Shown one piece after another: positions 3,187-17,026 of a stretch of 40,122 nucleotides of DNA (its first letter is position 1; each line of letters begins with the position of its first letter). The position numbers and the translations under genes are program-made. This DNA comes from Actinomycetota bacterium. GTDB lineage: Bacteria > Actinomycetota > Actinomycetes > Mycobacteriales > HKI-0501. The DNA lies in assembly GCA_030840805.1 (NCBI GenBank), contig JAVEDU010000088.1:1-40122 (forward strand), read 5' to 3'. Under the pieces are notes generated by a model that was not told the DNA's origin, ran no database searches, and saw only the letters and a program-made list of their open reading frames with translations.

Positions 3187-3223
3187 ATTGGCACGTACGT
3201 GCCAATTGACGGGTACGTGCCAA
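3187..3223. promoter_or_regulatory. Perfect 20-bp palindrome plus a third half-site; likely operator
   Basis: Bases 3187-3206 read ATTGGCACGTACGTGCCAAT, which is identical to its own reverse complement. A further copy of the right half, GTACGTGCCAA, follows at 3213-3223. The site lies between two divergently transcribed genes (starts at 3082 and 3236), where a dimeric repressor could control both. The cognate regulator is not known; the XRE protein encoded just downstream is a candidate by position only. Confidence 0.6.
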
Positions 3224-3235
3224 ATCTGCGTCAGG

Positions 3236-3982
3236 ATGTTCGCCGTGGCCGCCCCGGGAGGTCAGCGCAGCTCGCCGCTGGTCCGCGCGCTGGAGCTGAC
3301 CTGGGAAGCCATCCGGGCGCGTCACCGGGAGTTACCGGCCGTCGTGGTCGTCCTTGCGTCGGGGTCGATCGGCATCGCGCCCGGCACGCTGAACCTCGGC
3401 CACTACGCCGCGATGCGATGGAGCCACGGCGAGGACCGGCTGGCGGAGGTCTTCGTCGGCGGTGAGGGCCTCCGCCGCGGCCCTGTTGACGTTCTGGGCA
3501 CGCTCCTTCACGAGGCCGCACACGCTCCTGCGGACGTCCGCGGGATCAAGGACACCTCCAGGCAGGGGCGGTACCACAACCGCCGGTACGCTGGGGTCGC
3601 CCGCGAGGTGCTGCTCGATGTTGCCGAGATCGGCGACATCGGCTGGTCCGACACCCGTCCGACCCGGGAGGCCCACGCGGTTTACGCGGAGGTGCTCGAC
3701 GATCTCGGCGCCGCGCTCACGCTGTGGCGTCGCGCCGAGGGGGAGGCGTTCGTCGGCGCCGGTGGTGACGATCCGGATCATGGACCGACCGGCGGGGGAG
3801 TGGATCCAGGCGCCGGCGGCCGTGGCCGGCCCAACTCCAACAACCCTCTGGCTTGCGCGTGCTCCTGTCCGCGCCGGATTCGCGTTGCGCCGTCGGTCCT
3901 CGCACAGGGACCGATCCGCTGCCTCGTGTGCAGTGCGGACTTCGAACCTGTAGACCGATCCGGTGCTCTTCAGGCATCGTAG
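3236..3982 (+). CDS. SprT-like putative zinc metallopeptidase with C-terminal zinc ribbon
   Basis: 248 residues from the ATG at 3236. The central segment LLHEAAHAPADVRG gives an HExxH zinc site (H92, E93, H96), and GRYHNRRY about 18 residues on supplies a possible third ligand (H114). This spacing fits SprT/Wss1-type proteases that act on DNA-protein complexes. The C-terminal part has cysteines 207, 209, 211, 229 and 232 in a CxCxC ... CxxC pattern, a likely zinc ribbon, as in SprT proteins. An in-frame start at 3155 would place the palindromic operator inside the coding region, so I prefer 3236, although its ribosome binding site is weak. The substrate is unknown. A SprT-like enzyme on a conjugative element could process protein attached to DNA, but that is inference. 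The family call is based on motif geometry only. Confidence 0.6.
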   Translation: MFAVAAPGGQRSSPLVRALELTWEAIRARHRELPAVVVVLASGSIGIAPGTLNLGHYAAMRWSHGEDRLAEVFVGGEGLRRGPVDVLGTLLHEAAHAPADVRGIKDTSRQGRYHNRRYAGVAREVLLDVAEIGDIGWSDTRPTREAHAVYAEVLDDLGAALTLWRRAEGEAFVGAGGDDPDHGPTGGGVDPGAGGRGRPNSNNPLACACSCPRRIRVAPSVLAQGPIRCLVCSADFEPVDRSGALQAS

Positions 3983-3986
3983 AGCC

Positions 3987-4904
3987 GTGCATATCCACGA
4001 AGCGGGTTCCAGCCGCAGCGGACCGGAGCTGGCGACGGAACAGCGGCGGGTCGCAGCTCGGAGGGAGCTGGGCCAGCAGCTGCGTGCGTTGCGGGAGCTC
4101 AGTGGCCTCTCCGGACAGCGGGTGGCCCAGGCGCTTGGCTGGTCGCAGGCGAAGGTCAGCCGGATCGAGAAGGCCCGCACCCGGGCAGAAGCGGCTGATA
4201 TCGCCAAGCTGCTGGACGTGCTCAACGTCGAGCCGGGACGTCGGGATGCGCTGCTCCTCCTGGCCGAGCTTGCGGCAGGCCCACCGGAGACGTGGCGGAA
4301 CTCGTCGCGTACCGGCCTCACGCGGCGGCAGCAGGACTTCGTCGCCTTCGAGGCCGCCGCGACCCGGATCCGGCATTACCAGCCGCTGCTGATCCCCGGA
4401 TACCTGCAGACCACTGAGTACGCGAGGCGCGTGCTCGCGATGGCAGATGCCAACGACCTGGAACGACGCCTGGAATCGCGGCTCGCCCGGCGGCAGATTG
4501 TTATCGGCGACTCCGCACCCTCGTACGAGATCGTGCTCTTGGACTCCGCACTTCGATGGAGGCCCGGCCCCGCGACCGTGATGGCAGAGCAGCTCGATCT
4601 CCTGCGCAAGATGGTCCGGCGACCCAATGTCACCGTCCGGGTAGTTCCGCTCGATCGCGAGCAGAACAGCTTTGTGCAGCACCCGTTTGTGCTGTACGAC
4701 TTCGGTGAGGCGAGCCCAACCGAAGGATTGGTCGAGACGACAACCACCGACCTTCGGATCACGGACGAGGACGAGGTCGAGGCGTTGGGTCGGTTTTTCG
4801 GACGGCTGTCCTCGTCCGCGCTGTCTCAGCGGGACTCTCTCTCGCTCATCAGGCAGAAGCACCAGTCGTACATGGACCTCTCAAAGACCGAGGAGGGAAC
4901 ATGA
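3987..4904 (+). CDS. XRE-family transcriptional regulator with DUF5753 domain
   Basis: 305 residues from the GTG at 3987; a GTG at 3963 in the same frame would overlap the preceding gene by 20 bases. Residues about 27-67 form a helix-turn-helix with LRELSGLSGQRVAQALGWS and AKVSRIEKARTR. The remainder matches the DUF5753 ligand-binding-like region found in many actinobacterial regulators, including LLIPGYLQTTEYAR and FVLYDFGEASPTEGLVE. Such proteins are usually encoded next to a DUF397 protein, and here the stop overlaps the DUF397 start (ATGA, 4901-4904), so the two are translationally coupled. In Streptomyces, relatives act in development and antibiotic control, and some pairs have been described as toxin-antitoxin-like. 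The target promoters are unknown; the nearby palindrome at 3187 is a candidate. Confidence 0.9.
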   Translation: MHIHEAGSSRSGPELATEQRRVAARRELGQQLRALRELSGLSGQRVAQALGWSQAKVSRIEKARTRAEAADIAKLLDVLNVEPGRRDALLLLAELAAGPPETWRNSSRTGLTRRQQDFVAFEAAATRIRHYQPLLIPGYLQTTEYARRVLAMADANDLERRLESRLARRQIVIGDSAPSYEIVLLDSALRWRPGPATVMAEQLDLLRKMVRRPNVTVRVVPLDREQNSFVQHPFVLYDFGEASPTEGLVETTTTDLRITDEDEVEALGRFFGRLSSSALSQRDSLSLIRQKHQSYMDLSKTEEGT

Positions 4905-5107
4905 GCAACGACCACGACTTCGCCGGCGCTACGTGGCGGAAGTCGAACAACAGCGGTGACGGCGGCTGCGTGGAGGTGGCCGTCCTGGCGGACGCGGTCG
5001 GTGTCCGGGACAGCAAGGACCGAGGTGGCCCAGTGCTGATCTTCAACCAGCGTGAATGGGCAGCCTTTGTCGCAGGCGTCCGCGAAGGGGAGTTCGACCA
5101 GGAGTGA
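4901..5107 (+). CDS. DUF397 domain protein
   Basis: 68 residues. It shows the full family pattern: WRKSNNSGDGGCVEVAV near the N-terminus, VGVRDSKDRGGPVL in the middle and WAAFVAGVREGEFD at the end. DUF397 proteins are small actinobacterial partners of XRE/DUF5753 regulators, and this gene overlaps its regulator by four bases. The biochemical role is not settled; in described cases the pair works as a regulatory module. The family assignment is secure. Confidence 0.93.
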   Translation: MSNDHDFAGATWRKSNNSGDGGCVEVAVLADAVGVRDSKDRGGPVLIFNQREWAAFVAGVREGEFDQE

Positions 5108-5116
5108 CCTGATCCG

Positions 5117-5148
5117 GGGCCGGTTGCCTGATGACGTGTACCCGGCCC
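5117..5148 (+). terminator. Possible weak hairpin terminator after the XRE/DUF397 pair
   Basis: GGGCCGG (5117-5123) can pair with CCGGCCC (5142-5148) around an 18-base loop, ten bases after the DUF397 stop. There is no T-run, so termination is uncertain. Confidence 0.3.
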
Positions 5149-5176
5149 GGGCCGTCACCCGCGGCAGGGAGAGACC

Positions 5177-6412
5177 TTGGCATCGTTGGGCAAGCTCAGC
5201 GAGGGGGCGGAGTCCGCCAGCCCCCTCCGGAGCCGTGGATTCCACGCACTGTGGGGATCTGCGGGTGTTTCCAGCGTCGGTGACGGCGCGTTTTTGGTTG
5301 CCGCGCCCTTGCTGGCTGCCTTCATCACGCGGGATCCCGTGGGCGTGGCGATCGTCAGCGCAGCAACCGTGCTGCCATGGCTCATCGTCGGGCCATGGGC
5401 TGGCGCCGTCGTCGATCGCGTACCGCGGCGGCGGATCATGATCGCGGCCGACGTCGTTCGTGCGGCAACACTCGCGTTGCTGGTGGTGTTGGTTGTTTCC
5501 GGGTCCGCCTCGATCGCCGCGCTCGCCATCACGTCCTTCGTCATGGTGTCGGGCAAGGCATTCTTCGACGCGGCCGCACAGGCCAGCCTCCCCGCGATCG
5601 TGGGGCGCGAACCAAGCACCCTCACCCGTGCCAACGGCCGGCTGTACGCGGTGGAGACCGTCGGGCAGTCGGTAGCAGGACCGCCCCTCGGTGGGCTCAC
5701 GTTCGCCGTCGCGCCTTGGGCGCCGTTCGTCCTCGATGCGCTCTCCTTCGGCCTGTCGGGGACGCTCTTGTCGCGGATGCCGCGTGGCGAGGCCCCCCAG
5801 CATCAGGCCGGCCAGAGTGTCCGCGCGGCAATCCGCGAGGGCTTTGTGTACGTGTTGCGACACCGAGAGCTGCTGGCGCTCTCGCTCGCCGTGGCCGGCT
5901 ACAACGTCGCCTACAACATGGGATTCGCGACGCTGGTGCTCTTCGTGCTGGAGCGGCTCGGGACCGGCGGGGTCGGCTTTGGCCTGCTCGTCGCAACCTC
6001 TGCGCTCGGTGCCGTGGTCGTCGGGTGGAAGGCGTCATCGCTAGTGCGGATGCTGGGAGCTCGCGGTGCCGTGCTGGCCGCTGGGGGAGCGCAGGCCTTG
6101 GGGTGGGTTGGGCTGTCGATGCTGTCCTCACCGTGGCTTGCTGCGCCGGCCTTTGCCGTTCTGGGTGGGGCCACGACGCTAGTGACGGTCGCGGTGGTGT
6201 CGGAGCGCCAGGCCGTTGTGCCCGACCACATGCTAGGTCGTGTGGTATCTGCCTTCCGGCTTGTCGGCAACGGCCTCGCACCGGTCGGATCGGTGATCGG
6301 GGGCCTGATCGCGGCCGGCGCAGGCCTGCGCGCGCCGCTCCTCGCCGCTGCCGCCTTCATGGTGGTGACACTGTGTGGGTTTCAGCTGTGGCGGGTGGGC
6401 CACCATGAGTGA
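5177..6412 (+). CDS. MFS transporter
   Basis: 411 residues with 10 to 12 hydrophobic membrane segments. The start of the fold is seen in FHALWGSAGVSSVGDGAF, and the first cytoplasmic loop carries the MFS motif A-like segment AGAVVDRVPRRRIMIAAD. This matches the MFS_3 group, which includes drug and siderophore exporters. The TTG start at 5177 follows GGGAGAG at 5167-5173. It is in the same direction as the XRE/DUF397 pair but 69 bases away with a hairpin between. The substrate cannot be predicted from sequence. On a mobile element it is most simply read as export cargo that might give resistance, but this is inference. Confidence 0.85.
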   Translation: MASLGKLSEGAESASPLRSRGFHALWGSAGVSSVGDGAFLVAAPLLAAFITRDPVGVAIVSAATVLPWLIVGPWAGAVVDRVPRRRIMIAADVVRAATLALLVVLVVSGSASIAALAITSFVMVSGKAFFDAAAQASLPAIVGREPSTLTRANGRLYAVETVGQSVAGPPLGGLTFAVAPWAPFVLDALSFGLSGTLLSRMPRGEAPQHQAGQSVRAAIREGFVYVLRHRELLALSLAVAGYNVAYNMGFATLVLFVLERLGTGGVGFGLLVATSALGAVVVGWKASSLVRMLGARGAVLAAGGAQALGWVGLSMLSSPWLAAPAFAVLGGATTLVTVAVVSERQAVVPDHMLGRVVSAFRLVGNGLAPVGSVIGGLIAAGAGLRAPLLAAAAFMVVTLCGFQLWRVGHHE

Positions 6413-6425
6413 CACCTAGGAGGGG

Positions 6426-7082
6426 CTACTTCCTCGCGGACGCCTTGCCCTCGAAGATCGACGCTTCGTAGTCGAACGCGGGTGCCACCTCGATATTGAC
6501 CAGAGGGAGGTTCCCCTTTGGCACGGCGAAGCCGAAAGTCGCGGTCGCCTTGCGCCCAGGAGCGACGCGACTGTTGAACCCGTCGCCGGCTACGTCGTCG
6601 AAGACCCGCTCCGCCTCCAGGCCGTCTGCGCCCGCCTTGAGCGTCACGATGCATTCGTTCAGTTCGACAAGCTCGAGGCCGCCGTTGGTGATTCTCACGG
6701 TTACCAGCACGCCGACATCGCCTGGCTGCGCTCCCGCGTTGATCACCGGAATCGTGTACCGCTTGGCGGACAGCACCTGGACCTTGAGGTCGTCCTCGTA
6801 GGTGATCCCCTCGTCACCGATACGCGCGAGCAGCGGTGCTGTGGTGGCGGTGTCCTCGGCGAACACGTCTGGAGACGTCGATGAGGCGTTCGAGGAATCG
6901 TCACGGGTCGCTGAGCCGGTGGTGAACATTGCGACGGCGACAACCAGCGTCAGGATCAGTGCGACGCCTACCGCTCCGAGGGCCCACCACTCCCAGGAGG
7001 ACTTCGTCCGTGCACCCCGTCGGCCGCTCGGCTCGGCGGACTGTGGACGTGCCGGATCCGGTGGGGCTGGTGGCTGAGACAC
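6426..7082 (-). CDS. Membrane-anchored extracytoplasmic protein, DUF4352-like
   Basis: 218 residues from the GTG at 7082, chosen because GGGAGGA ends five bases before it. A proline-rich cytoplasmic N-terminus is followed by one membrane helix (residues about 32-53, WWALGAVGVALILTLVVAVA). An outer domain follows with ITYEDDLKVQVLSAKRY, GVLVTVRITNGG and FGFAVPKG, the beta-sandwich pattern of DUF4352/Ig-like proteins that sit outside the membrane. It is convergent with the MFS gene (14 bases apart) and divergent from the WhiB-like gene. The function is unknown; such proteins are often linked to cell-envelope or transfer functions. Confidence 0.65.
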   Translation of the reverse strand: MSQPPAPPDPARPQSAEPSGRRGARTKSSWEWWALGAVGVALILTLVVAVAMFTTGSATRDDSSNASSTSPDVFAEDTATTAPLLARIGDEGITYEDDLKVQVLSAKRYTIPVINAGAQPGDVGVLVTVRITNGGLELVELNECIVTLKAGADGLEAERVFDDVAGDGFNSRVAPGRKATATFGFAVPKGNLPLVNIEVAPAFDYEASIFEGKASARK

Positions 7083-7258
7083 GGCGTTCCTCCCTTGCCG
7101 TGGCGTGAGCGCGGCATGACAATCTGTCGCCGGTTGCGACGGTAGTGCACGGACGTCTGTGAGCTGCGCCCCCATGCTTCATTCGAGGTGGCCGCCAACG
7201 TCGCTGGACGACGGTTCCCCTCCCGACTTCCGCAGTCGTACTCCGTACAGTGGTCTTG

Positions 7259-7294
7259 CACCGTGCATAATCATGGTGTAGACACCGTGCATAA
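7259..7294. promoter_or_regulatory. Two direct repeats CACCGTGCATAA ahead of the WhiB-like gene
   Basis: The 12-mer occurs at 7259-7270 and 7283-7294, exactly 24 bases apart, so a protein could bind the same face of the helix after just over two turns. The stretch 7259-7278 is also an imperfect palindrome (CACC at one end, GGTG at the other). It lies in the 241-base divergent region between the membrane-protein gene and the WhiB-like gene, 30 bases before the latter's start. A regulator-binding role is inferred. Confidence 0.5.
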
Positions 7295-7323
7295 CCACGA
7301 CAGCACCCGGAGGAGGGGGCACC

Positions 7324-7653
7324 GTGGCACGAGGACAGAGCACTGAGAACGTCGCCGAGCTGAGTACACGCCGGCTCGACGAGATCGTCGGAGATCAGGG
7401 CCAGTGCCGCGGTATGGACACGGACGCCTGGTACCCGCTGGTGAGCCATCCGGTCGGCGGCGTCGCAGCCAAGACCGCGGAGGCCGAGCGGGAGTACGCG
7501 CAGTCGCAGTGTGCCGGGTGCCCGGTGACGCGCGAGTGCCTGGAACTGGCGCTGCGCATCCCGGCCGGGGTCTACGGCATCTGGGGCGCCACCAGTGAAC
7601 GTGACCGGCTGGTGCTGCGGAAGCGCCGGGCAGACGAGGGAGCGGTGGCATGA
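7324..7653 (+). CDS. WhiB-like iron-sulfur transcription factor
   Basis: 109 residues. It has the four cysteines of the Wbl family (C28, C63, C66, C72; spacing CxxC then five residues to the last) that bind a 4Fe-4S cluster. The family turn motif follows as GVYGIWGAT (82-90), and then a basic tail RDRLVLRKRRAD for DNA or sigma-factor contact. The GTG start follows GGAGGAGG. It is the first gene of the long rightward operon of the element and overlaps the next gene by ATGA. Wbl proteins occur on many actinobacterial phages and plasmids and often control element or host genes with the principal sigma factor. Here it probably controls transfer functions, which is inference. Confidence 0.92.
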   Translation: MARGQSTENVAELSTRRLDEIVGDQGQCRGMDTDAWYPLVSHPVGGVAAKTAEAEREYAQSQCAGCPVTRECLELALRIPAGVYGIWGATSERDRLVLRKRRADEGAVA

Positions 7654-7931
7654 GCCGTCGCCGGTCGCCGGCCTGGGTGGGACAGCCCGTGGTGGTGTGC
7701 GTCGGCGGTCCGCTCGACGGGCGCTGGTACCTGCTGGCTGACCTGGACGCGATGCGCACCGCAGCGCAGCTCACGGGCTACACCGCGGACCACCCGAGCG
7801 GAGCGGCGCTGGGATACGACGCCACCGCCGGGACTCGGGTCCACCCCTACGAGGACGTGCTAGGTCAGGTGTACCGGCACGCCGACTCGGCCGCGGGCCG
7901 GGCCAGGCACCACATACCGGCGGTGGCCTGA
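7650..7931 (+). CDS. Small hypothetical element protein
   Basis: 93 residues, starting at an ATGA overlap with the WhiB-like gene. It contains VVVCVGGPLDGRWYLLADLD near the N-terminus and TRVHPYEDVLGQVYRH near the C-terminus, and has no membrane segment. The motif GGPLDGRWY resembles small proteins seen in actinobacterial elements and phages, but I cannot name a function. High GC in third positions and tight coupling on both sides support a real gene. Confidence 0.7.
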   Translation: MSRRRSPAWVGQPVVVCVGGPLDGRWYLLADLDAMRTAAQLTGYTADHPSGAALGYDATAGTRVHPYEDVLGQVYRHADSAAGRARHHIPAVA

Positions 7932-8248
7932 TGCGCGCCGGCCGACAGACGCCCGGATGGGCTCGGCGCGCTCGCGGGCCCTTCACCGAGCACGCGTACG
8001 TCATCACCACCGCCCGGCCGCTGGCGGTCCACCAGCTCATCCATCCGCCGGCCCTGATCGCGATCTTCGACAGCCATCGCTGCCGCGCCGTGCTGCTCGA
8101 TGCACCGCTGTGGCGCGGGCTCCACCACGTCTACGCGCTGATCTCGCTCGTCGCGATCGCGGCCGCGTACCTCTTCGCATGGGTCTTCGCGACACCGCTC
8201 CGGCTCGCCATCGCCCTCGCGGCCGCGCTCGTCGCCGTCCTGCTCTGA
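7931..8248 (+). CDS. Small hypothetical protein with C-terminal membrane segment
   Basis: 105 residues; its ATG overlaps the preceding stop (TGATG). The first 65 residues are soluble and basic, with RARGPFTEHAYVITTARP. Residues about 67-105 are strongly hydrophobic, enough for one long or two short membrane helices, and reach the C-terminus. It lies between a small soluble protein and the SpdB-like membrane protein, so a role at the membrane in transfer is possible. No family is recognised. Confidence 0.65.
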   Translation: MRAGRQTPGWARRARGPFTEHAYVITTARPLAVHQLIHPPALIAIFDSHRCRAVLLDAPLWRGLHHVYALISLVAIAAAYLFAWVFATPLRLAIALAAALVAVLL

Positions 8249-8275
8249 CCGCACTCCCACGAAGGGGATACCGCT

Positions 8276-9076
8276 GTGAGCCAGGTTCCACCGCTTGCCG
8301 GAGCCCCCGCCAGGCCACCGGCGCGCCTGTCGTGGGAAGGCGCGATCTGTACCGGCATCGCGATGGTGCTCGGCGCCGCGGCGGGGGCTGGCAGCTTCGC
8401 GCACATCCGCGACGTGGCGGCCGGACGCGGTCAGGGCGGCTGGATCGCCTACGCGATCGCCGGCTCGGTGGACCTGATGGCGGTCGGCTCGGGACTGGAG
8501 ATCCGCCGTCGCAGGCGGCTCGGCCATCCGGCGCGCTGGCCCGTGTTCACCCTCTTGCTGGGCGTCGCGATGACCTTGGCCGCAAACCTGGCCACCGCGG
8601 CGCCGAGCTGGTGGGGACGCGTGATGGCGGTATGGCCTGCGGTGGCCTTCCTCGCCGTGGTGGGTCTCTTCGAGACCCGTGTCCGCCGAAACCGCGTCGG
8701 GACCGGTCCCGCTATGGCGGGAAACCTCGACTCCGGGACCGCGGCGGATGCGCCGTCGAGCCCTGCCACGGCCCCGGAACCCACGACCGTCCCGGCCGTC
8801 GCGGCGAACGGACGTTCCGCCGGAGGTACCGGGACGGGCGGGACCGCGGCAGTGGCCCGGATGCGGGCCCACTGGGCAGCCCGCCGCGCAGCCGGCCAGA
8901 CGCCGACCGGCGCGGAGCTGGCCCGGGTGACCGGGACCGATCCGAGCCTCGGACGCCGCGTTCGTCGGCAGCTCTTGAAGGACGACGCGCGTGCCGCCCG
9001 GCACGGACTCGTGGTCGTTCCGGGGGACCAGCACCCGGAACGTCAGGACCCGGAGGAGGTCGGCGGTGCTACCTGA
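8276..9076 (+). CDS. DUF2637 (SpdB-like) membrane protein with C-terminal helix-turn-helix
   Basis: 266 residues from a GTG preceded by GAAGGGG. Four membrane helices lie within residues 20-135: near AICTGIAMVLGAAAGAG, IAYAIAGSVDLMAVGSG, FTLLLGVAMTLAANLATA and VWPAVAFLAVVGLF. This is the DUF2637 pattern of proteins encoded beside conjugation genes in actinomycete plasmids, thought to act in spread of DNA along mycelium (Spd proteins). A variable linker follows, and residues about 195-250 (PTGAELARVTGTDPSLGRR) look like a winged helix, as in relatives that combine membrane and DNA-binding parts. It probably helps intramycelial spread or recruits element DNA to the membrane; this is family knowledge plus inference. 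Confidence 0.8.
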   Translation: MSQVPPLAGAPARPPARLSWEGAICTGIAMVLGAAAGAGSFAHIRDVAAGRGQGGWIAYAIAGSVDLMAVGSGLEIRRRRRLGHPARWPVFTLLLGVAMTLAANLATAAPSWWGRVMAVWPAVAFLAVVGLFETRVRRNRVGTGPAMAGNLDSGTAADAPSSPATAPEPTTVPAVAANGRSAGGTGTGGTAAVARMRAHWAARRAAGQTPTGAELARVTGTDPSLGRRVRRQLLKDDARAARHGLVVVPGDQHPERQDPEEVGGAT

Positions 9077-9275
9077 TCCCGAGCACACGCGCGGCTGGCT
9101 TGTGGCTGTGTACGCCGACGGTCGCCGCATCTGTGACTACCCGCCGACGCCGTTCCTGAGCGCCCTGTCCCTCTGGCGCGCGGTACGCCGGTGCTGGCCG
9201 CAGTGGCAGGCACGTCTGAGCCCCCCAACGGGATCGAGGTTGGCCGCCCTGTGGCCCGCGCGGTGGTCGGCATGA
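9066..9275 (+). CDS. Small hypothetical element protein
   Basis: 69 residues starting at a GTG inside the end of the DUF2637 gene, preceded by a strong GGAGGAGG. The first half reads RGWLVAVYADGRRICDYPPTP and the second is rich in Trp and Arg. The next gene overlaps its stop by ATGA. No family is recognised; the ribosome binding site and coupling are the main support. Confidence 0.55.
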   Translation: MLPDPEHTRGWLVAVYADGRRICDYPPTPFLSALSLWRAVRRCWPQWQARLSPPTGSRLAALWPARWSA

Positions 9276-9409
9276 AGCGACTCTGCCGTCGTCGGGTTCA
9301 CCACTGCCGCGGTTGCGGCGGCCGAGTGCCCGCACCGCGAGAGGCCTGTCGTGCCTGCCGCCTTCACTCCGTCGAAGCGTTGCCCGTCCGGAGAAGGAGC
9401 CAACGATGA
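9272..9409 (+). CDS. 45-residue Cys4 zinc-finger-like protein
   Basis: Starts at ATGA overlapping the previous stop and ends overlapping the next ATG. It has HHCRGCGG, then EACRACRLH: two CxxC pairs separated by 11 residues, the geometry of a zinc ribbon or knuckle, in an arginine-rich sequence. It probably binds nucleic acid or a protein partner. It is too short for a firm family call, but codon bias and overlap on both sides argue for a gene. Confidence 0.55.
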   Translation: MKRLCRRRVHHCRGCGGRVPAPREACRACRLHSVEALPVRRRSQR

Positions 9410-9504
9410 CCGCGCGCCAACCGGCAACCGCCTCGTCCCGCCGGTCCCGCCCCGGGTGCATTTGTCGCCCCGGGCGCAGTCCCGCCTGCTTGGCGCTCTG
9501 GTGA
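9406..9504 (+). CDS. Possible 32-residue peptide
   Basis: Opens at an ATG overlapping the previous stop, with GGAG eight bases upstream, and closes with TGA twelve bases before the next ATG. The sequence includes SRPGCICRPGRSPACLALW with three cysteines. It may be a true micro-gene of the operon or simply a leader that couples translation to the gene at 9516. No similarity is recognised. Confidence 0.3.
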   Translation: MTARQPATASSRRSRPGCICRPGRSPACLALW

Positions 9505-9515
9505 GGGGCGCGGTG

Positions 9516-9767
9516 ATGACGGCACCGGAGAGCACCAAGGAACGTGTCGAGCTGGTGTGGAAGCTCCTGGACGAGCGCTACCCGGGCGGTCAGCCGCCGC
9601 TCGCCTATGAGGTCGACGACTTCGACGGGCGTTGTCTGTACCGCGGGACCGATCTTGAGCTCGCCTGCGAGATCCACGACCAGGACTCCGGGGCGCACCT
9701 GTCCCGCTGTGTCCCGGTCGCTCGCATCGACTGGAGCGGGACCCCGGGGGAGGGAGGGTCGCGGTGA
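9516..9767 (+). CDS. Small acidic hypothetical element protein
   Basis: 83 residues from an ATG with GAGGGG about seven bases upstream; an upstream GTG at 9501 is possible. It begins MTAPESTKERVELVWKLLDER and continues with AYEVDDFDGRCLYRGTDLELACEIHD. It is a soluble, acidic mixed alpha/beta sequence. The stop overlaps the start of the next gene (TGATG at 9765-9769). No family is recognised. Confidence 0.6.
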   Translation: MTAPESTKERVELVWKLLDERYPGGQPPLAYEVDDFDGRCLYRGTDLELACEIHDQDSGAHLSRCVPVARIDWSGTPGEGGSR

Positions 9768-10015
9768 TGCGGGCCAGGCGGTACACCGTGCGGCTGTACT
9801 GGCGGTCGAGCCGCGAGGCCGAGGAGGAGACCAACCTCGATCCGCGCAGCCGCGCCGCGTTGCGGGCGACGCTGGAGCGGATGGTGGAGACGCACCACGG
9901 CACGCTCGACCTTGATCTGGCGCAGTACTCCATCGTCGTGCACTCCCGCGGCGGCGGCCGTGTCCATGCGCGATGCCGGGTCGGGGTCAACGGGGTCACG
10001 GAGGTCGAACTATGA
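9767..10015 (+). CDS. Small conserved element protein, paralogue of the 2834-3082 product
   Basis: 82 residues from the ATG at 9767; the GTG three bases upstream is an alternative. It aligns end to end with the product of the minus-strand gene at 2834-3082. Both have RRYTVR or KRYTVR at the start, WRSS, TNLDP, ATLERMV or QTLERMV, YSIVVHS and GGGRVHARC. The stop overlaps the next start by ATGA. The function is unknown. Two copies in one element, one alone on the opposite strand, point to a duplication or to merging of two related elements. Confidence 0.75.
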   Translation: MRARRYTVRLYWRSSREAEEETNLDPRSRAALRATLERMVETHHGTLDLDLAQYSIVVHSRGGGRVHARCRVGVNGVTEVEL

Positions 10016-10236
10016 CCTCCCGGCGACAGAGGGCACGCGCTCAGCGTGAGGCCGAGTTCTGGGGTGCCCGGCTGGCGGCATGCCGGACGGCCTCGGCGCG
10101 GGTGGCGGTTGTCTTCGACCGGCTCCGCGCCCGTATCTCGCGCCAGCCCGCCACAGCACGCGAGCAGGCGTGGGCCGAGGTCGAGTCCGCGATCGACGCG
10201 CTCATCTCTGGCTTTCCGATCCGAGGGGAGGACTGA
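10012..10236 (+). CDS. Small hypothetical helical protein
   Basis: 74 residues, starting at an ATGA overlap. It is basic at the N-terminus (SRRQRARAQREAEFWGARL) and then helical and amphipathic through to DALISGFPIRGED. It lies between the conserved 82-residue protein and a membrane protein. It may be a small DNA- or protein-binding factor; no family is recognised. Confidence 0.6.
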   Translation: MTSRRQRARAQREAEFWGARLAACRTASARVAVVFDRLRARISRQPATAREQAWAEVESAIDALISGFPIRGED

Positions 10237-10239
10237 TCC

Positions 10240-10680
10240 ATGACGCCCACAGGAGGAGTTACCGCGGCGGTCGGCCTCGTGTGCCTGGTAGCCGCGTGCC
10301 TGATCTGGACGGTGGGCCGCGGACACACGCCTCGACTTGTCGTGGCACTCGTGATCGCCGGCAGTGTGGGAATCGTCGGTAGCCCGCTCGGCGGCTGGAT
10401 CCGGCGTGCGGTGCTCTACCTCGACCAGCTCGCCGGTACGGCCACGGGTCGGCTCACCGGTGTCGTCGTCACCGGCTTGATCGGTCTCATCGCCCTCTAC
10501 GTGCTGGCGGTGCATCTCTGGCACAACTCGGTGGACATCAAGACCCTCGCGGCCGCGCTCATCGCTCCCGTTGCGATGACTTCGGTACCCGGTGTCGTCG
10601 GCACCGTGGGCGCCAGCGTCCTGGGTGCCATCGCATCCGCCGTCGGGATGGCCGTCGGCGCTGCCTTCGGAATCCACTAA
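10240..10680 (+). CDS. Integral membrane protein of the transfer region
   Basis: 146 residues with hydrophobic segments at about 8-24, 30-50, 68-90 and 105-143, and short charged loops (WTVGRGHTP, LGGWIRRAVLYLDQ). The start lies three bases after the previous stop, but the ribosome binding site GAGGGGAGG inside that gene's end is strong. Genes for multispanning membrane proteins between SpdB-like and TraB-like genes are common in actinomycete elements, where they are thought to help form the DNA-transfer channel. No named family is recognised. Confidence 0.7.
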   Translation: MTPTGGVTAAVGLVCLVAACLIWTVGRGHTPRLVVALVIAGSVGIVGSPLGGWIRRAVLYLDQLAGTATGRLTGVVVTGLIGLIALYVLAVHLWHNSVDIKTLAAALIAPVAMTSVPGVVGTVGASVLGAIASAVGMAVGAAFGIH

Positions 10681-10695
10681 GGACGGTGAAGTGAC

Positions 10696-11577
10696 GTGGA
10701 GTTCATCTTCGGCATCGCTCTGGTCTACGGGCTGGCCTTCGCCCTCGTACGCGGCACCGAGCACGCCGGTCGCGCCCTGCAGAGCGCCTATCGCACCAAC
10801 GCCATGGGTCGGCAGGGTCGGCGTCAGGGTGGGAAGCCCTACGCCACGGGCCGGTCCTCGACCGCGGGGGCGAAGCTCGGTGCGGTCGTCGCCACCGGCG
10901 CGACCGGTCTGGTGATGGCCGGTCGCGGATTCGCCGAAGGCTGGCGGACCGGGTGGCCGGAGGGCCGCCGGCGCGCACACGAACGATGGGGGCGCCCGCC
11001 TGAGCCCGCTCCCGAGCCCGCCGAGCCAGCCGACCGAGCCCCCGCGGACTCCACAAAGGACGACCCGCCTGCCGGTACCGACCGGCGCAGCTTGCGGCTG
11101 GTCCCCGAACCCGACTCGGCGGCCGCCGGGACGGAGCCCGACCCCGCACCGCGCGGGGATGCGACAAGCACGGAGGACACGGACATGGCGATCACGACGA
11201 CGACCGGCGGCGAGGTCCTGACGATGGACCAGCTCCTCGCCGAACTGGGAACGATCATCGAGGAGGCCGCGGCCGATCTGGAGGACGCGCAGGCGGATGC
11301 TCAGCGCGCCACCGAGGACGCGCAGCGGGTCGAAACGATGGTCGCGTCCCTGCGGTCGATGGACCTCGACGAGCAGACGCTCGGCGAGGTGGGCGCGCTG
11401 GGTGATTCCGCAACGGCCCGACAGGCCGCAGCGGACCAGCGCGCCGCAGCGGCGGAAGCCCGCCACGCGCAGGCAACCGCCGCCCGTGACGGCGTGCAGG
11501 CTCGGCACCAGCTCATGGCCGAGGCCCACGCCGCCACCCCGCACGCCGCTGACAAGCAGTTCTACGTCGGCGGCTGA
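10696..11577 (+). CDS. Membrane-anchored coiled-coil protein preceding the DNA translocase
   Basis: 293 residues from a GTG. Residues 1-20 form an N-terminal membrane segment, a second hydrophobic stretch AVVATGATGLVMAGRGFAEG follows at about 63-82, then a Pro/Ala/Glu/Asp-rich linker. From about 175 to 275 the sequence is a long Ala/Glu/Gln/Arg helix with heptad character, such as QLLAELGTIIEEAAADLEDA and TARQAAADQRAAAAEARHAQ, very likely a coiled coil. It sits directly before the FtsK-like gene and may act as a membrane scaffold or partner of the translocase. That role is inferred from order and domain layout; no family is recognised. Confidence 0.65.
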   Translation: MEFIFGIALVYGLAFALVRGTEHAGRALQSAYRTNAMGRQGRRQGGKPYATGRSSTAGAKLGAVVATGATGLVMAGRGFAEGWRTGWPEGRRRAHERWGRPPEPAPEPAEPADRAPADSTKDDPPAGTDRRSLRLVPEPDSAAAGTEPDPAPRGDATSTEDTDMAITTTTGGEVLTMDQLLAELGTIIEEAAADLEDAQADAQRATEDAQRVETMVASLRSMDLDEQTLGEVGALGDSATARQAAADQRAAAAEARHAQATAARDGVQARHQLMAEAHAATPHAADKQFYVGG

Positions 11578-11588
11578 CCCTGCCCACC

Positions 11589-11632
11589 GAGGTCTCCCGG
11601 CGGGGCCGCTGCCGTCCACGCCGGGAGGCCTC
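11589..11632 (+). terminator. 14-bp stem hairpin between the coiled-coil and translocase genes
   Basis: GAGGTCTCCCGGCG (11589-11602) pairs with CGCCGGGAGGCCTC (11619-11632); the single mismatch becomes a G-U pair in RNA. The loop is 16 bases. It lies in the only sizeable gap (88 bases) inside the operon, 34 bases before the translocase start. There is no T-run, so it may be a partial terminator, an attenuator or an RNA-processing site that sets lower expression of the translocase. Confidence 0.5.
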
Positions 11633-11665
11633 CCGAACCTCACACGTCATCGACAGGAGCCCGCT

Positions 11666-13690
11666 GTGTCCCGCCGCTACCGCCAGCCGTACCGAATGCC
11701 TTCGGGGAGACACGGTGCACGGCGACTGGGTGGGCTGGAGCCGTGGGAGACCGCTGCGTACTTCCACGGCCTCCACATGCGGTACCGGCGCCGTTGGTGG
11801 CTGCGCCAGGCGTGGCGGGTCGTGCGGTGGTGGCTCCGCTTCTGCTGGACCCGCCGCCGGCCACTCGCGCCGCTCTACCTCGCCCTCGTGCTCCAGGTGC
11901 TCGGCCTCGTTCTCGCGTCCGCGGCGGGCGGTGTTCGTACCACCGTCGTACTGGCGGCGCTCTGCGCGGCCTGGCTCGGCTGGCGCCTGCACGGCCGGGT
12001 ACCGGTTCGCGGAGCCCGGCCTCTGATGTGGACCCGCCGAGCCACGCCGGATCGGAACCGGCTGCTCTACGCCTGGGGCGTCTACGCAGCGGCCACCGCC
12101 TGGCTCGTCACCGCCGCGGCGATCGGCGGAGGGCCACCGATGCCCGGGTTCCTCGTCCTTGCCGTGCTCGCCGGTGGAGTTCCGTGGTGGTGGCATCACC
12201 GCATCCGCCAGGCTCCCGCTCTCGGAGACTGGGCCGCGATCTGGCGCGAGCGGGTCGCGGCGGACAGCGCGGCATTGCCCGGGTCGCAGCTCACCGAGTA
12301 CGCGCCGATGAAGGCCGGCTGGTCGGCCACCATCGAGCTGCCGCCGGGCAAGTCCACGACCTCGACTGCGGTCGCGGCCACCGAGCGGATCGCGTCTGCG
12401 TATGGCAAGCCCGTCACGTCTGTCGTCATCGAGCCCACCGCCTCCGGTGATGCGTCCCGCGCCCGCCTCATGGTGCTGACCACCAATCCGCTCCAGGGCG
12501 TGCACCCCTGGCCCGGGCCGCAGTTGCTCGACGCGACGACGGGGACGGCGCCGGTGGGGGTGTACCCGGATGCCGAGCAGGCCGCGTACCGGTTCTGGCA
12601 GCCGGGTTCCGGCGCGGTCCACGGTCTGGTCGCCGGGACGACGGGTGCCGGCAAGTCACAGTTCGTCGGGATGCTGCTGGCCTATGAACGCCACTCCGGC
12701 CGGCTGATCGTGTCGTGGGTCTGCGACCCCCAGCACGGGCAGTCCCTGCCGGACTGGATGGACCACGTCGACTTCGCGGCGCGCTCGGCCGAAGAGGGCG
12801 TGCAGATGCTCCACATGGCGCGAGCGGTGATGTACGCACGCAACCGGTATCTGGCCGACGTCGAGTGGACCGACGAACAAGGACGCCGCCGGAAGGGTAG
12901 GGCGTCGTTCGAGCCCACCCCCGAGATGCCGCTGCTCTCGGTGACGGTCGAAGAGGCGCATGCGGTGTTCGTCTACGACGAAGCCGTGAAGCTCGCCGAG
13001 GAGATCGGCAAGATGGGCCGCAAGTGCGGGGTGTCGCTACGACTGATCACTCAGGTGCCGCTCCTGTCGCAGCTCGGCAACTCGATGACCCTCCGCGACG
13101 CGGTGGCCGGCGGGAACGTCATCGTGCTGCGCACCGCCAACCGGCTGTCCGGCCAGGTGGCCTTCAACGGCACCCTGCCGGTCGACCCGGCTCAGCTCCC
13201 GCGGCGATTCCCCGACGGCTCGTCGACGTCGGGGCTCGGATTCATGATCGGTGCGACCGACCGCCAGGCTCCGATGCGCGGGTTCTTTGATGTAGACCCG
13301 TTCGGTTGGGCAACGGCGGGGGAGACCAACACCCTCGATCCGTACTCTTCCCGCGCCGCGGAGCTGGCGGCCCGCAAGGCCGGCACGGGCTACCGCAACC
13401 GCCCCGAGCCGGTCAGCTGCCCAGCCGGTACCGAGGAAGCCGCAGAGGTTGCCTCCACTGCTGACGCGCCGTGGCGCGATGCCTATCCGACTGCCCGCGA
13501 GGCAATCCTCGGCTACCTCCAGGGCCGCAGGCGGGCCACGACCGGCGTCATCGCCCGTGACCTCGACGTTCCGCTGCCGACGGTCTCGAAGACCCTCGGC
13601 AGGCTCGCCGCAGCAGGGCTGGTCAGCCCCGTCCGGCGCGGTGTGTGGGCCGTTGCTGGCGACGATCGCGACGTGGAGGCCTCCGCATGA
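11666..13690 (+). CDS. FtsK/SpoIIIE-type DNA translocase, TraB-like conjugative transfer protein
   Basis: 674 residues from a GTG with AGGAG six bases upstream. Membrane helices lie at about 66-105 and 137-177, as in FtsK-type pumps anchored in the membrane. The motor follows: Walker A GTTGAGKS (324-331), a region WVCDPQHGQSLPDW, Walker B-like LLSVTVEEAH (423-432) and LITQVPLLSQLG as sensor region. Residues about 600-660 (TARE ... IARDLDVPLPTVSKTLGRLA) form a C-terminal winged helix that should recognise short DNA repeats. In actinomycete elements one such hexameric ATPase moves double-stranded plasmid DNA between mycelia. The conserved core and neighbours support this role. It overlaps the next start by ATGA, and repeats that could be its binding site lie just downstream. 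Confidence 0.9.
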   Translation: MSRRYRQPYRMPSGRHGARRLGGLEPWETAAYFHGLHMRYRRRWWLRQAWRVVRWWLRFCWTRRRPLAPLYLALVLQVLGLVLASAAGGVRTTVVLAALCAAWLGWRLHGRVPVRGARPLMWTRRATPDRNRLLYAWGVYAAATAWLVTAAAIGGGPPMPGFLVLAVLAGGVPWWWHHRIRQAPALGDWAAIWRERVAADSAALPGSQLTEYAPMKAGWSATIELPPGKSTTSTAVAATERIASAYGKPVTSVVIEPTASGDASRARLMVLTTNPLQGVHPWPGPQLLDATTGTAPVGVYPDAEQAAYRFWQPGSGAVHGLVAGTTGAGKSQFVGMLLAYERHSGRLIVSWVCDPQHGQSLPDWMDHVDFAARSAEEGVQMLHMARAVMYARNRYLADVEWTDEQGRRRKGRASFEPTPEMPLLSVTVEEAHAVFVYDEAVKLAEEIGKMGRKCGVSLRLITQVPLLSQLGNSMTLRDAVAGGNVIVLRTANRLSGQVAFNGTLPVDPAQLPRRFPDGSSTSGLGFMIGATDRQAPMRGFFDVDPFGWATAGETNTLDPYSSRAAELAARKAGTGYRNRPEPVSCPAGTEEAAEVASTADAPWRDAYPTAREAILGYLQGRRRATTGVIARDLDVPLPTVSKTLGRLAAAGLVSPVRRGVWAVAGDDRDVEASA

Positions 13691-13887
13691 ACAACGGTTC
13701 GCAGCCACTCACCGTGACCTCCTCGCGCGTGCCTGCGCGGGAGCGCGCGCCTGGGCGCGTAGGCCTCGTCCGCGTGTCAACCCGGCTGTCAACTCGTCGC
13801 TGTCAACTTCACGCACCGCGACGTTCGCATTCACCACGGCGATCCCATCGCGGTCCCCACTACTCGACCTTGGAGGGAGCTGTATGA
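13687..13887 (+). CDS. Possible 66-residue basic protein
   Basis: The frame starts at ATGA overlapping the translocase stop and ends overlapping the ATG at 13884. It is rich in Arg, Ser and His, with no recognised motif. Third-position GC is good in the first third and weak in the second half, and the stretch contains three TGTCAAC repeats. The DNA may therefore serve as a cis-acting site rather than, or as well as, a gene. Confidence 0.35.
   Translation: MNNGSQPLTVTSSRVPARERAPGRVGLVRVSTRLSTRRCQLHAPRRSHSPRRSHRGPHYSTLEGAV
13775..13807. repeat. Three TGTCAAC repeats just after the translocase gene; candidate transfer site
   Basis: TGTCAAC occurs at 13775-13781, 13787-13793 and 13801-13807, start spacing 12 and 14 bases; the second and third share GCTGTCAACT or CTGTCAACT. 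In Streptomyces plasmids the TraB translocase binds short direct repeats in the clt locus, often next to or overlapping traB. Position and repeat size fit such a site. The sequence itself differs from the published repeats that I recall, so this is a hypothesis. Confidence 0.4.
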
Positions 13888-14544
13888 CCACGCGAGACGA
13901 TTCCCCGGCTGCCCTGGTGCGCGAGACGAAGCCGGATTCACCGGGGCTGCTGGGTCGGTGGGCAGCGGACTGCGACCCGTGCACTGTCGCCGGTGAACCG
14001 CGACCGCGCGTCGACGAGGCGGACCAGGTCGCCGGTGCTCACGACGACCGGCACCACGGCGGGGAGCCGACCGCCGTGACACGTGCCGTTCCGCCGGATC
14101 GCGACCGTAGGGCAGCGCGTGCGGTGCTGCTGACCACACGGGTGCCGGGCTACCGGCCTGCTCGCATTCCCGCGCTCATTACCGGCACTCCGGGGCTGTT
14201 TTTGGTCCGTCGGCGGCGCACTGCCTGTGCTGAGCAAACGCTGTGCGGCTCCTGGCGGTGGGGCGTGATCGCCGCCCGTGGTGTGTACGTCGTCAAGCCG
14301 GTGGAGCATGCCGGCCTGCCCCGCTACGCGGCCTCCGTTCTCGCCGCCGCCCTCGGCGGCACGGGTGTCCGCTGGACCGACCGGGAGGTGCTGTACCTGC
14401 TGGCCGAGCTCACCGGCGACCGCCTGGTCGAGGGTGACCACGGTGCTGCGCTCGTTCGGGGTGTGGACCCCATCCGATCCCGTCGCGGCGCTGGCGCGGG
14501 CCCGGGACCGCTACCTCGTCGCGCTCTTGGAGGGATCCGCATGA
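13884..14544 (+). CDS. Hypothetical element protein with apparent +1 frame break
   Basis: The reading frame starts MTTRDDSPAALVRETKPD and continues with VPGYRPARIPALITGTPG and WTDREVLYLLAELTGDRLVE to about 14432. After this point the codon pattern with G or C in third position moves to the next frame, which reads VTTVLRSFGVWTPSDP and then ARARDRYLVALLEGSA to the TGA at 14542-14544, overlapping the next ATG. Without the shift the first frame stays open into the following gene but with poor codon bias for about 105 bases. Removing one G from the GGG at 14432-14434 would join the two parts. This may be an indel mutation, an assembly error, or less likely programmed frameshifting; overlapping separate genes are also possible through the GTG at 14434. 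No family is recognised. Confidence 0.5.
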
Positions 14545-14801
14545 CCACGCAGGACCAGTCACTGACCGCCCTCGGTCGACAGGCACACCGGGTCGCCGGA
14601 GAGATCCGGCTGCTGGCTGAGCGGGGCGAAACCGTGGGGATGCAGCCGGACGGCCATTCATGGGAGGAGATTCGCCTCTTCGCCGACACCTTGCACGGCA
14701 TGGCGTTCGGGTGCGCGTTCGAGGCCGACGACATGGAGCTGCTCTTCGAACTCACCGGCCGCCGCTGGCGCCGCCTCGACCCACCGGGAGGTGCCGGATG
14801 A
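14541..14801 (+). CDS. Small hypothetical element protein
   Basis: 86 residues from an ATGA overlap with the preceding frame, with GGAGGGA eight or so bases upstream. It is helical at first (LTALGRQAHRVAGEIRLLAE), followed by SWEEIRLFADTLHGMAF and ELTGRRWRRLDPP. It is soluble and acidic, and no family is recognised. Its start MTTQD resembles MTTRD of the previous gene, and both contain an ELTG segment, which may hint at distant duplication. Confidence 0.6.
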   Translation: MTTQDQSLTALGRQAHRVAGEIRLLAERGETVGMQPDGHSWEEIRLFADTLHGMAFGCAFEADDMELLFELTGRRWRRLDPPGGAG

Positions 14802-15300
14802 GCCCCGCGACCGTCACCGTGCCAATCCCGCCGACCTGCGCGAGCTGGCGGTGCGGGTCGAGGCGCTGGCCGCCGAGATGACGGCGATCCGCGACCGGAT
14901 GGTCGCCGGCGGGGACAGCCCCACCCAGCGGGTGAGCTTCCGGCTCGACGAGGGTGCCTCCGGCGTCCGTAGCGGCGCGACGGCCCTCACCGAGACGGCC
15001 GCCGACCTCGCCCGGGTCCTCGGCCGCTCCGACTGCGCCGCGAACTGGGGCGCCTGCCCGGAGCACGGAGGCACACTGCGGGCCTCCGGTGGTGTCGCCT
15101 GGTGTCAGGCGCGGAGATGCCGCCGGGCGTGGAACTACAACCGCCTCGGACTGCCGTGCAGCGAGCCGGCGGCCTACATCGCGCGCGACCCCGCCGGTGA
15201 CGAACTGCGGTGGTGCGCCGGCCACACCCTCCAGGCTCGCGCCGTCCTGGCGGGCGACCACACCTACATCACGATCACCGGACGAGGAGATCGGCCATGA
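14791..15300 (+). CDS. Cysteine-rich hypothetical element protein
   Basis: 169 residues from a GTG at 14791, eleven bases inside the preceding gene. This start is chosen because it is the only in-frame one before the well-coded segment LRELAVRVEALAAEMTAIRD. The first 75 residues are helical with RVSFRLDEGASGVRSGA. From about residue 83 there are seven cysteines plus histidines (CAANWGACPEHGG, WCQARRCRRAW, LPCSEPAAY, WCAGH), probably one or two zinc sites. The following ATG overlaps its stop. It could bind DNA or act as an adaptor; nothing more specific is supported. A competing ATG at 14798 in another frame closes at 14881 and has poorer codon bias. Confidence 0.6.
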   Translation: MPDEPRDRHRANPADLRELAVRVEALAAEMTAIRDRMVAGGDSPTQRVSFRLDEGASGVRSGATALTETAADLARVLGRSDCAANWGACPEHGGTLRASGGVAWCQARRCRRAWNYNRLGLPCSEPAAYIARDPAGDELRWCAGHTLQARAVLAGDHTYITITGRGDRP

Positions 15301-15488
15301 CCCGGCTACCCACCTTCCAGGACACGCGCCGAGCGGCGTTCGCGATGCTCGGTGACGTCGAGGACATCCTGCGCTCGGACTGGCGTTCCGGGACGGGCCC
15401 CACGACGGAACAGGCCGACGCCGCGATGCAGGCCCGGCGGCACATCGCCGAGGCGAAGGCCGCGCTCGATGAGGCGGCGCGCTCATGA
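15297..15488 (+). CDS. Small helical hypothetical protein
   Basis: 63 residues from an ATGA overlap. The sequence TRRAAFAMLGDVEDILRSDW and ADAAMQARRHIAEAKAALDE suggests two long helices. It overlaps the excisionase start by ATGA. It has the size and position of small accessory factors for recombination directionality, but no family is recognised. Confidence 0.6.
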   Translation: MTRLPTFQDTRRAAFAMLGDVEDILRSDWRSGTGPTTEQADAAMQARRHIAEAKAALDEAARS

Positions 15489-15697
15489 CGGCCGCCGTGC
15501 GGAGCGTCCACGAGACCCGGGCGGCCATCCGTCGCCTGTGGAGCGTCGAGGACCTGTCCGCGTACCTCGGCGTACCTGTCCGGACTCTCTACCAGTGGCG
15601 GACCAAGCGGTGCGGCCCACCGGGGAGGCGGGTCGGGCGGTACGTCCGCTACCGCCCGGAGGATGTCGAAGCCTGGCTCGACTCCGAGACGCGGTAG
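15485..15697 (+). CDS. xis: Excisionase / helix-turn-helix DNA-binding protein
   Basis: 70 residues with the MerR-like helix-turn-helix used by many excisionases: LWSVEDLSAYLGVPVRTLYQWR, then GPPGRRVGRYVRYRPEDVEAWL. The final ...VEAWLD helix is the typical end of this family. It lies nine bases before the integrase start, as expected for a recombination directionality factor that helps the integrase cut the element out. A role also as transcription regulator of int cannot be excluded. Confidence 0.87.
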   Translation: MTAAVRSVHETRAAIRRLWSVEDLSAYLGVPVRTLYQWRTKRCGPPGRRVGRYVRYRPEDVEAWLDSETR

Positions 15698-15705
15698 GGC
15701 ACTGG

Positions 15706-16896
15706 ATGGCACGACCACCGATGGCGCTGGGGACGTGGGGAGAGATCCGCGTGCACGTCTCCCACGTCAACGTCAGGGGCCGGCCCGACCGGTTCCGAGC
15801 CGTGGCCGGCTATCGCGATTTCGACGGGAAGACCCGCCAGGTCGAGCGCTACGACCGGACCAAGGCGGGCGCGGTCAACCGGCTCCGGATCGCGCTGAAG
15901 GAGCGATCCACCCTGGGTCGGCGCGGTGAGCTGACCGCGGCGCACCGCTTCGGTGACGCCGCCGCGATGTGGCTGGCGAAGATCGAGGCCATGGCCGCCG
16001 AGGATCGGCGCTCCCCGGGCACGGTGGAGACCTACCGCCGGGTGTTCGAGCGGCACGTCAAGCCGGCCCTGGAGGAGCTGCGGCTCGCCGAGGTGCTGAC
16101 TCCCGTCGTGGACCGCTTCATCGCGACCGTGAAGGAGGACGTGGGCGCGCCGACCGCGCGGACGTGCAAGACCATCGTCTCCGGGGTCATGGGGCTGGCC
16201 GTCCGCTACGGCGCGGTGACTACCAATCCGGTCCGTGAGGTCGAACGCGTCGAGGGTCTGCCGAAGAAGGAGCCACGGTCCCTCACCGAGGAGGAGCGCG
16301 TGGCGTGGGTCGTCCAGCTCGCCGGCGACGAGGACGCGGTGCGGAAGGATCTTCCGGACCTCACGGCCTTCATGCTCGCGACGGGAGCCCGCATCGGGGA
16401 GACGCTGGCGGTCCTGTGGTCCGAGGTGGACCTCGAACGCGAGACCGTCGAGATCACGTCCACGGTGATCCGGGTCAAGGGCGTCGGGCTGCTCCGCAAG
16501 CGGACGAAGTCCCGGGCCGGCCAGCGGGTGCTGCCGCTGCCGAGCTGGGCGGTCGCCATGCTGCGCCGGCGGTTCGTGGAGAACCCGCGGCTGGACGAAC
16601 CGGTGTTCCCCGACGACCGGGGAGGGTTTCGAGACCGGAGCAACGTGCAGCGGGACCTCCGCGAGGCGCGAGGGACCAAGGACCTCGCGTGGGTGACGTC
16701 GCACAGCTTCCGCAAGACGACCGCCACGATCCTCGACGAGGCCGGCCTCAGCTCCCGCCTGGTGGCGGACCAGCTGGGTCACGCGCGGCCGTCGATGACG
16801 CAGGACGTGTACCTCGGGCGCAAGCAGGTGAGCCAGCGTGCGGCCGCCGCTCTGGAGGCTGCGTTGGGCACTCCGGAAGAGCAAAACCATGGGTAA
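15706..16896 (+). CDS. int: Tyrosine site-specific integrase
   Basis: 396 residues. An N-terminal arm-binding region (FRAVAGYRDFDGKTRQVERY) is followed by a core-binding SAM-like domain near 80-170. The catalytic domain has R229 (LATGARIGETL), a lysine near 266-268 (RKRTKSR), H333 and R336 (TSHSFRKTTAT), H359 (LGHARPSM) and the nucleophile Y369 (DVYLGR). All residues for phage-type recombination are present, so the enzyme is likely active. The gene points at the tRNA-Lys gene 54 bases away, which it probably uses as attachment site. The ATG at 15706 is chosen; an ATG at 15721 is an alternative. Confidence 0.95.
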   Translation: MARPPMALGTWGEIRVHVSHVNVRGRPDRFRAVAGYRDFDGKTRQVERYDRTKAGAVNRLRIALKERSTLGRRGELTAAHRFGDAAAMWLAKIEAMAAEDRRSPGTVETYRRVFERHVKPALEELRLAEVLTPVVDRFIATVKEDVGAPTARTCKTIVSGVMGLAVRYGAVTTNPVREVERVEGLPKKEPRSLTEEERVAWVVQLAGDEDAVRKDLPDLTAFMLATGARIGETLAVLWSEVDLERETVEITSTVIRVKGVGLLRKRTKSRAGQRVLPLPSWAVAMLRRRFVENPRLDEPVFPDDRGGFRDRSNVQRDLREARGTKDLAWVTSHSFRKTTATILDEAGLSSRLVADQLGHARPSMTQDVYLGRKQVSQRAAAALEAALGTPEEQNHG

Positions 16897-16950
16897 ACCA
16901 TGGGCCGCCGGGTGCGGGGGAGACGGGGCTACTGCCCTGACCTGGGATTG

Positions 16951-17026
<76 letters not shown>

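Follow-up and report, generated by a model that had tools for sequence, protein, structure and literature searches.

A 40,122-nucleotide stretch of DNA from an Actinomycetota bacterium (contig JAVEDU010000088.1 of assembly GCA_030840805.1, hereafter the window) encodes a compact DNA transfer operon beside a tRNA-Lys gene. This is probably an integrated, mosaic element of the actinomycete integrative and conjugative element (AICE) type in which the replication gene of neither parental kind is present, making it non-autonomous and perhaps decaying. Its SpdB-TraB block appears to be of the kind associated with Prim-Pol/DUF3987 or DnaB_N-DUF3987 proteins, and seems to have been joined to an xis-int block of the kind associated with RepSA. 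The central features are as follows.

7324-7653, plus strand: WhiB-family regulator, encoded at the head of the operon (PF02467, 1.8e-13)
8276-9076, plus strand: DUF2637/SpdB-like membrane protein (PF10935, 2e-9)
11666-13690, plus strand: TraB, an FtsK/HerA-like translocase with a C-terminal winged helix; the start is possibly upstream
15485-15697, plus strand: Xis, an excisionase-like helix-turn-helix protein (HTH_17, 3.3e-11; phrog_66, excisionase)
15706-16896, plus strand: tyrosine integrase, Int (PF00589, 4.7e-19, 69 bits versus a cut-off of 27)
16951-17026, minus strand: tRNA-Lys(CTT), the presumed integration target, with its 3' end toward the element

Operon structure and the replication gene

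The genes from whiB (7324) to int (16896) form a tightly coupled operon, and the tRNA-Lys gene lies 55 bp beyond the int stop. With 20 genes laid out, 17 of the 19 junctions have a gap or overlap of 15 bp or less and ten are 4-bp start-stop couplings, counts that depend on gene choice, as the tiny open reading frames (ORFs) at 9066, 9272, 9406, and 13687 were chosen partly for fit. The longer junctions are 27 bp before spdB and, if traB starts at 11666, 88 bp before traB. An eleventh 4-bp coupling, between xis and int, proved to be an artefact: position 15694 reads GTA, whereas the start of Int is at 15706 or 15721. The initial annotation had described an AICE-like operon in tRNA-Lys, with nearly all genes overlapping or abutting and with SpdB-like, TraB-like, Xis, and Int functions. 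The junctions bear out this layout, and profile matches back each of the four functions. The frames of WhiB, DUF2637, TraB, Xis, and Int are all intact.

TraB matches the plasmid TraB model NF041214 at 8.3e-23, yet far under that model's 800-bit cut-off. Its match to PF01580 (FtsK_SpoIIIE) is weak (18 bits versus a cut-off of 24), and the PF01580 hits across the genome do not include the window. TraB proteins end in a winged helix, and the one encoded here has this domain. A solved-structure search with TraB returned no match, and no 8-bp repeat array of the clt/TRS type was seen after traB. Int provides the tyrosine or serine integrase (PF00589/PF07508) by which AICEs are recognized.

We did not identify a replication gene. 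Among the recognized genes from 719 to 16896, Pfam assigned none to a Rep, primase, or rolling-circle family; NCBIfam and PHROGs, each searched with 10 proteins, likewise revealed no match of these types. Genome searches for RepSA, Prim-Pol, DUF3987, and DUF3631 returned nothing at the window locus. The host assembly (4.46 Mb in 111 contigs, 95% complete) encodes one RepSA (C81:163214-164551), one Prim-Pol (C81:204596-205105), and one DUF3987 protein (PF13148; C81:205699-206796). All of these are on C81 in other elements, and the assembly has no further replication gene of these families. The search for DUF3631 (RepAM) had no match in the host assembly, nor in any control genome. The absence of a recognizable initiator, noted in the initial annotation, is thus upheld by the host-assembly searches and by the profile search of operon proteins against Rep and primase families that it had proposed.

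A probable mosaic of two kinds of element

Two other elements in the same genome each resemble a different part of the operon. The first, a sibling element on C81 at ~190-207 kb (L011), shares the DUF2637/SpdB protein (63% over 114 amino acids, aa) and TraB (46%), and has genes like those at 9513, 10240, 10696, and 14541. Unlike the window, it carries Prim-Pol and DUF3987, and it has another integrase (~29%) and adjoins tRNA-Met. The second, a pSAM2-type RepSA element on C81 at ~161.7-170 kb (L084), shares Xis (67% over 55 aa) and Int (63% over 387 aa), and has a 50% identical counterpart of one gene in the left flank of the window (3236-3982). It differs in the presence of RepSA, in its FtsK-type Tra, and in adjoining tRNA-Asn, with the gene order RepSA, xis, int, tRNA-Asn. 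Judged by these similarities, the window combines an SpdB-TraB block of the first kind with an xis-int block of the second. This statement covers the kinds of blocks; we do not claim that these two elements were the actual donors.

Relatives of TraB in other genomes indicate where a replication gene might be expected. Pattern-seeded scans detected eight TraB loci in the genome collection and seven in the viral collection. TraB was also matched in 192 of 72,556 plasmid records (all <60% identity), in 14 of 298 genomes of the order at 1e-20, and in 5 of 394 genomes of the class at 1e-60, the host being included in both genome counts. We compared 28 TraB-bearing loci besides the window by tblastn, which included two of the 192 plasmid records. 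Left out were the other plasmid records, L046 and L047, which are contigs of 3.5-4.9 kb (L046 also equals L014 in length and match), and L012, which covers the Fodinicola stretch already represented by L045.

All seven of the closest TraB relatives by percent identity (L011, L041-L045, and L063; 46-58%) have a DUF3987 helicase, located from directly after traB to ~7 kb downstream. In the sibling element it is beside Prim-Pol; in the other six it is fused to a DnaB N-terminal domain, an assignment based on Pfam for L041, L042, L044, L063, and L012 and on 96% identity for L043. The L045 contig ends inside the helicase gene. No such helicase is present near traB in the window, nor is there a RepSA gene directly before xis, where the second element has one. 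A replication gene is therefore missing from both places where it would be expected.

Five Streptomyces-type elements (L041-L044 and L063) are similar to the window in TraB (49-54%) and, except for L044, which begins near traB, in the 10240-10696-TraB block. They differ from it in their integrases, which are ~25% identical to Int or unmatched, and in the DnaB_N-DUF3987 fusion encoded directly after traB (L041:11935-13959, L042:11906-13951, L043:11933-13972, L044:1973-4009, and L063:11942-13963). A tblastn search with the Prim-Pol of the sibling element found no match in any of the five, so the fusion looks like their sole replication protein. In DnaB, the N-terminal domain contacts the host primase. 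This domain may stand in for the absent Prim-Pol, and the fusion is possibly a Prim-Pol-free replication module.

A different arrangement occurs in four loci of one genus. A DnaB-like gene (L078:5156-6529) or match (L075-L077) is located a few kilobases downstream of a distant TraB relative. These four loci yielded only matches of 117-150 aa to DnaB-containing queries, and L078 also matched RepSA. An integrase 42% identical to Int is encoded nearby in L078.

If the element functions as its gene content suggests, Int and Xis would integrate and excise it at tRNA-Lys, TraB would move the excised double-stranded circle, or the adjacent chromosome, between cells, and the SpdB-like proteins would spread the transferred DNA. 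Without its own Rep it would be non-autonomous and inherited with the chromosome. If still mobile, it would move unreplicated, or its replication could be supplied by a co-resident element.

Boundaries, small proteins, and competing explanations

Several observations weigh against the interpretation of a mosaic element without a replication gene. Seventeen of the 28 loci match no helicase query, so the lack of a helicase near a TraB of this type is not in itself a loss; one of the 17 (L048) is cut just after traB, and some are viral contigs or large plasmids, in which absence within 10 kb is little informative. In the TraB tree the window is not firmly placed, with the sibling element across an open fork. 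A compact operon with almost all of its genes intact argues against advanced decay, although the element may be in decay given an apparent frameshift (13884-14544), a truncated istB at the contig edge, and the lack of an att duplicate. Since no second att site was found, we infer integration into tRNA-Lys from its position alone. Finally, the contig starts inside an insertion sequence (IS) repeat, so the left end of the element is outside the contig and a replication gene beyond base 1 is possible. The features of this left flank are listed below.

1-127, plus strand: truncated istB at an assembly-repeat end; contig C87 opens with the same 127 bp
2834-3085, minus strand: 83-aa paralogue of the 9764 gene, 69% identical, in opposite orientation and ~7 kb apart
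3236-3982, plus strand: left-flank protein with the relative in the RepSA element noted above

A complete element with its replication gene past the IS21 copy, to the left of base 1, is unlikely but deserves weight. The contig ends in a repeat common to C87, no copy of att was found, and two left-flank genes resemble element genes; the similarity of 3236-3982 to a gene of the RepSA element indicates that the left flank also contains element-type DNA. Against this, the only Prim-Pol, DUF3987, and RepSA genes of the assembly are inside C81 in other elements, helicases of the closest TraB relatives occur no more than ~7 kb downstream of traB, and RepSA directly precedes xis in the RepSA element. 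The search for DUF3631, which lacked a positive control, also gave no match.

The gene at 1-127, which we take to be an IS21-type istB, runs on in C87 and not in the window, and past 127 bp the two contigs diverge. C87 was therefore rejected as the left neighbor, as only the 127-bp istB end is in common and adjacency is not shown. Direct repeats (attL/attR) usually flank AICEs, and repeat searches found no such pair. Specifically, the 3' part of tRNA-Lys has no second copy in the assembly (40-mer and 26-mer, up to 3 mismatches) and no near copy in positions 1-15800 (22-mers, up to 4 mismatches). An attempt to place the left boundary via empty sites also gave no boundary. In two genomes of the same family tRNA-Lys is near an L,D-transpeptidase-like gene (L039 and L040), and the window genes tested, including those of the left flank, had no match in these stretches.

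Near the IS edge, 719-2527 encodes a DNA methyltransferase (N6_N4_Mtase) with a C-terminal Mrr-type domain, possibly a single-chain restriction-modification system carried as cargo. The 83-aa proteins at 2834 and 9764 have relatives in phage contigs at 47-48% identity.

The region between traB and xis is the slot where relatives carry a replication gene. It encodes the following genes.

13687-13887, plus strand: 66-aa ORF whose start is coupled to the end of traB; no Pfam match above the cut-off
13884-14544, plus strand: gene with an apparent frameshift, its start and coupled end being in different frames
14541-14801, plus strand: 86-aa protein, 77% identical to a homologue in the sibling element
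14791-15300, plus strand: 169-aa cysteine-containing protein with relatives on nine plasmid records
15297-15488, plus strand: 63-aa protein; no Pfam match

The location of these genes and their lack of family assignments would fit an initiator of an undescribed family, or a remnant of one at 13884, a possibility that we consider very improbable. The initial annotation had suggested that a protein encoded at 13884-15300 replaces Rep, and this does not hold up. Relatives of the 14541 and 14791 proteins are found beside Prim-Pol genes, and both were rejected as Rep substitutes. Five Streptomyces plasmids were matched by 14791, and all three of the neighborhoods examined carry a separate Prim-Pol, making this protein an unlikely Rep; on one Pseudonocardia plasmid its relative has no Prim-Pol within 8 kb. 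In a solved-structure search 14791 gave two weak matches with no bearing on replication, and neither it nor 14541 had a confirmed relative in viral contigs. The proteins at 13687 and 15297 are just 66 and 63 aa long.

The initial annotation had counted the gene at 13884 among the unknown proteins; its coupled end at 14544 is out of frame with its start, an apparent frameshift. It had no match in plasmids, Pfam, PHROGs, or solved structures. With the resident RepSA it shares 29% identity over 75 aa (E 0.95), a score that 2 of 200 shuffled versions of 13884 also reach. RepSA aligns equally well or better to unrelated ORFs of the window (25.0 bits at 34506-36039 and 21.9 bits at 24697-26563), other, unrelated proteins match 13884 to the same degree (22.3 bits), and no alignment at this segment was obtained with a second RepSA (L078). 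We therefore rejected 13884 as a RepSA remnant, as the match is at chance level. Overall, the proteins of 13687-15488 appear from their sequences to be poor substitutes for Rep. A description of 13690-14265 as debris was dropped because the region contains the coupled ORFs 13687 and 13884. On C87 there are two further relatives of 14541, at 9521-9748 (64% over 50 aa) and 3256-3462 (37% over 60 aa) (L093). No transfer operon was seen there, so these may be element debris.

The missing att duplicate, the IS-truncated edge, and the apparent frameshift could also indicate an operon fixed in the chromosome and immobile, with TraB and SpdB serving the host or mobilizing only chromosomal markers. This is improbable given that Xis and Int are intact beside the tRNA and that the coupled gene starts are kept. 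We thus favor a mosaic element without its own replication gene. The remaining operon genes are listed below.

7650-7931, plus strand: 93-aa protein with a relative in the Fodinicola element (L012/L045), 48% identical over 67 aa
7931-8248, plus strand: 105-aa protein; no Pfam family over cut-off
9513-9767, plus strand: 84-aa protein with a partial homologue in the sibling element (58% over 45 aa)
9764-10015, plus strand: 83-aa protein, paralogue of the left-flank gene at 2834-3085
10012-10236, plus strand: 74-aa transfer-operon protein, 49% to L041
10240-10680, plus strand: 146-aa protein kept before traB, 48% to L041 and 27% to the sibling element
10696-11577, plus strand: 293-aa protein kept before traB, 38% to L041 and 30% over 142 aa to the sibling element

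Phage-borne relatives and known counterparts

Two tailed temperate phage contigs, IMGVR_UViG_3300049433_000067 and IMGVR_UViG_3300021976_000017 (loci L064, L065, L095, and L096), carry a DUF2637-TraB cassette. The contigs are 56,247 and 57,168 bp long and are named from different metagenomes, and their TraB proteins are nearly identical, suggesting a single phage lineage. The cassette consists of DUF2637, genes like 10240 and 10696, and a TraB 44% identical to that of the window. A tyrosine integrase is next to the cassette in L064, and one gene separates the two in L065. The L065 contig encodes a terminase, portal, head protease, major head, tail terminator, major tail, and tape-measure proteins, RecT, and an exonuclease; the L064 contig encodes an endolysin and tail proteins. 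Among 50,697 phage records there was no close match; TraB hit only two, both from a single phage, Streptomyces phage Gilgamesh (25% over 34%). Literature searches confined to open-licence PMC listed no paper on phage-borne TraB.

A tentative and rather doubtful explanation is that DUF2637-10240-10696-TraB is a portable double-stranded DNA transfer cassette, without a linked Rep, that can be placed on any integrative backbone, including phages. If so, a prophage carrying it would be able to pass from one mycelial cell to another by conjugation. Alternatively, the contigs may reflect insertion of an AICE-like element next to a prophage whose own integrase had been lost.

By the criteria of Ghinet et al. 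2011 (PMC3218068), the locus is not a full AICE: the scanned genes from 719 to 16896 include none of the replication proteins named there (RepSA, RepAM/DUF3631, or Prim-Pol), and flanking repeats were not found. Criteria built on rep and PF01580 would miss the window element. The same authors describe four AICE-related Frankia elements without tra or rep (Fean1457, Fcci0407, Fcci1144, and Feul5809) as remnants or mobilizable elements, and we liken the locus to them by description. A section of a Streptomyces population study (PMC9513070) is headed "AICEs are prone to decay". Incomplete elements of this type are thus already known, and the locus is mostly ordinary, although the presence of its transfer-gene relatives in odd carriers, including tailed phages, was unexpected. 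If the phage cassette is functional, transfer and viral modules would mix more freely in actinobacteria than assumed. More broadly, the comparison with the two resident elements suggests that AICE-type elements in one genome swap transfer, integration, and replication modules freely, and that such exchange can leave an apparently transfer-competent element without a replication gene.

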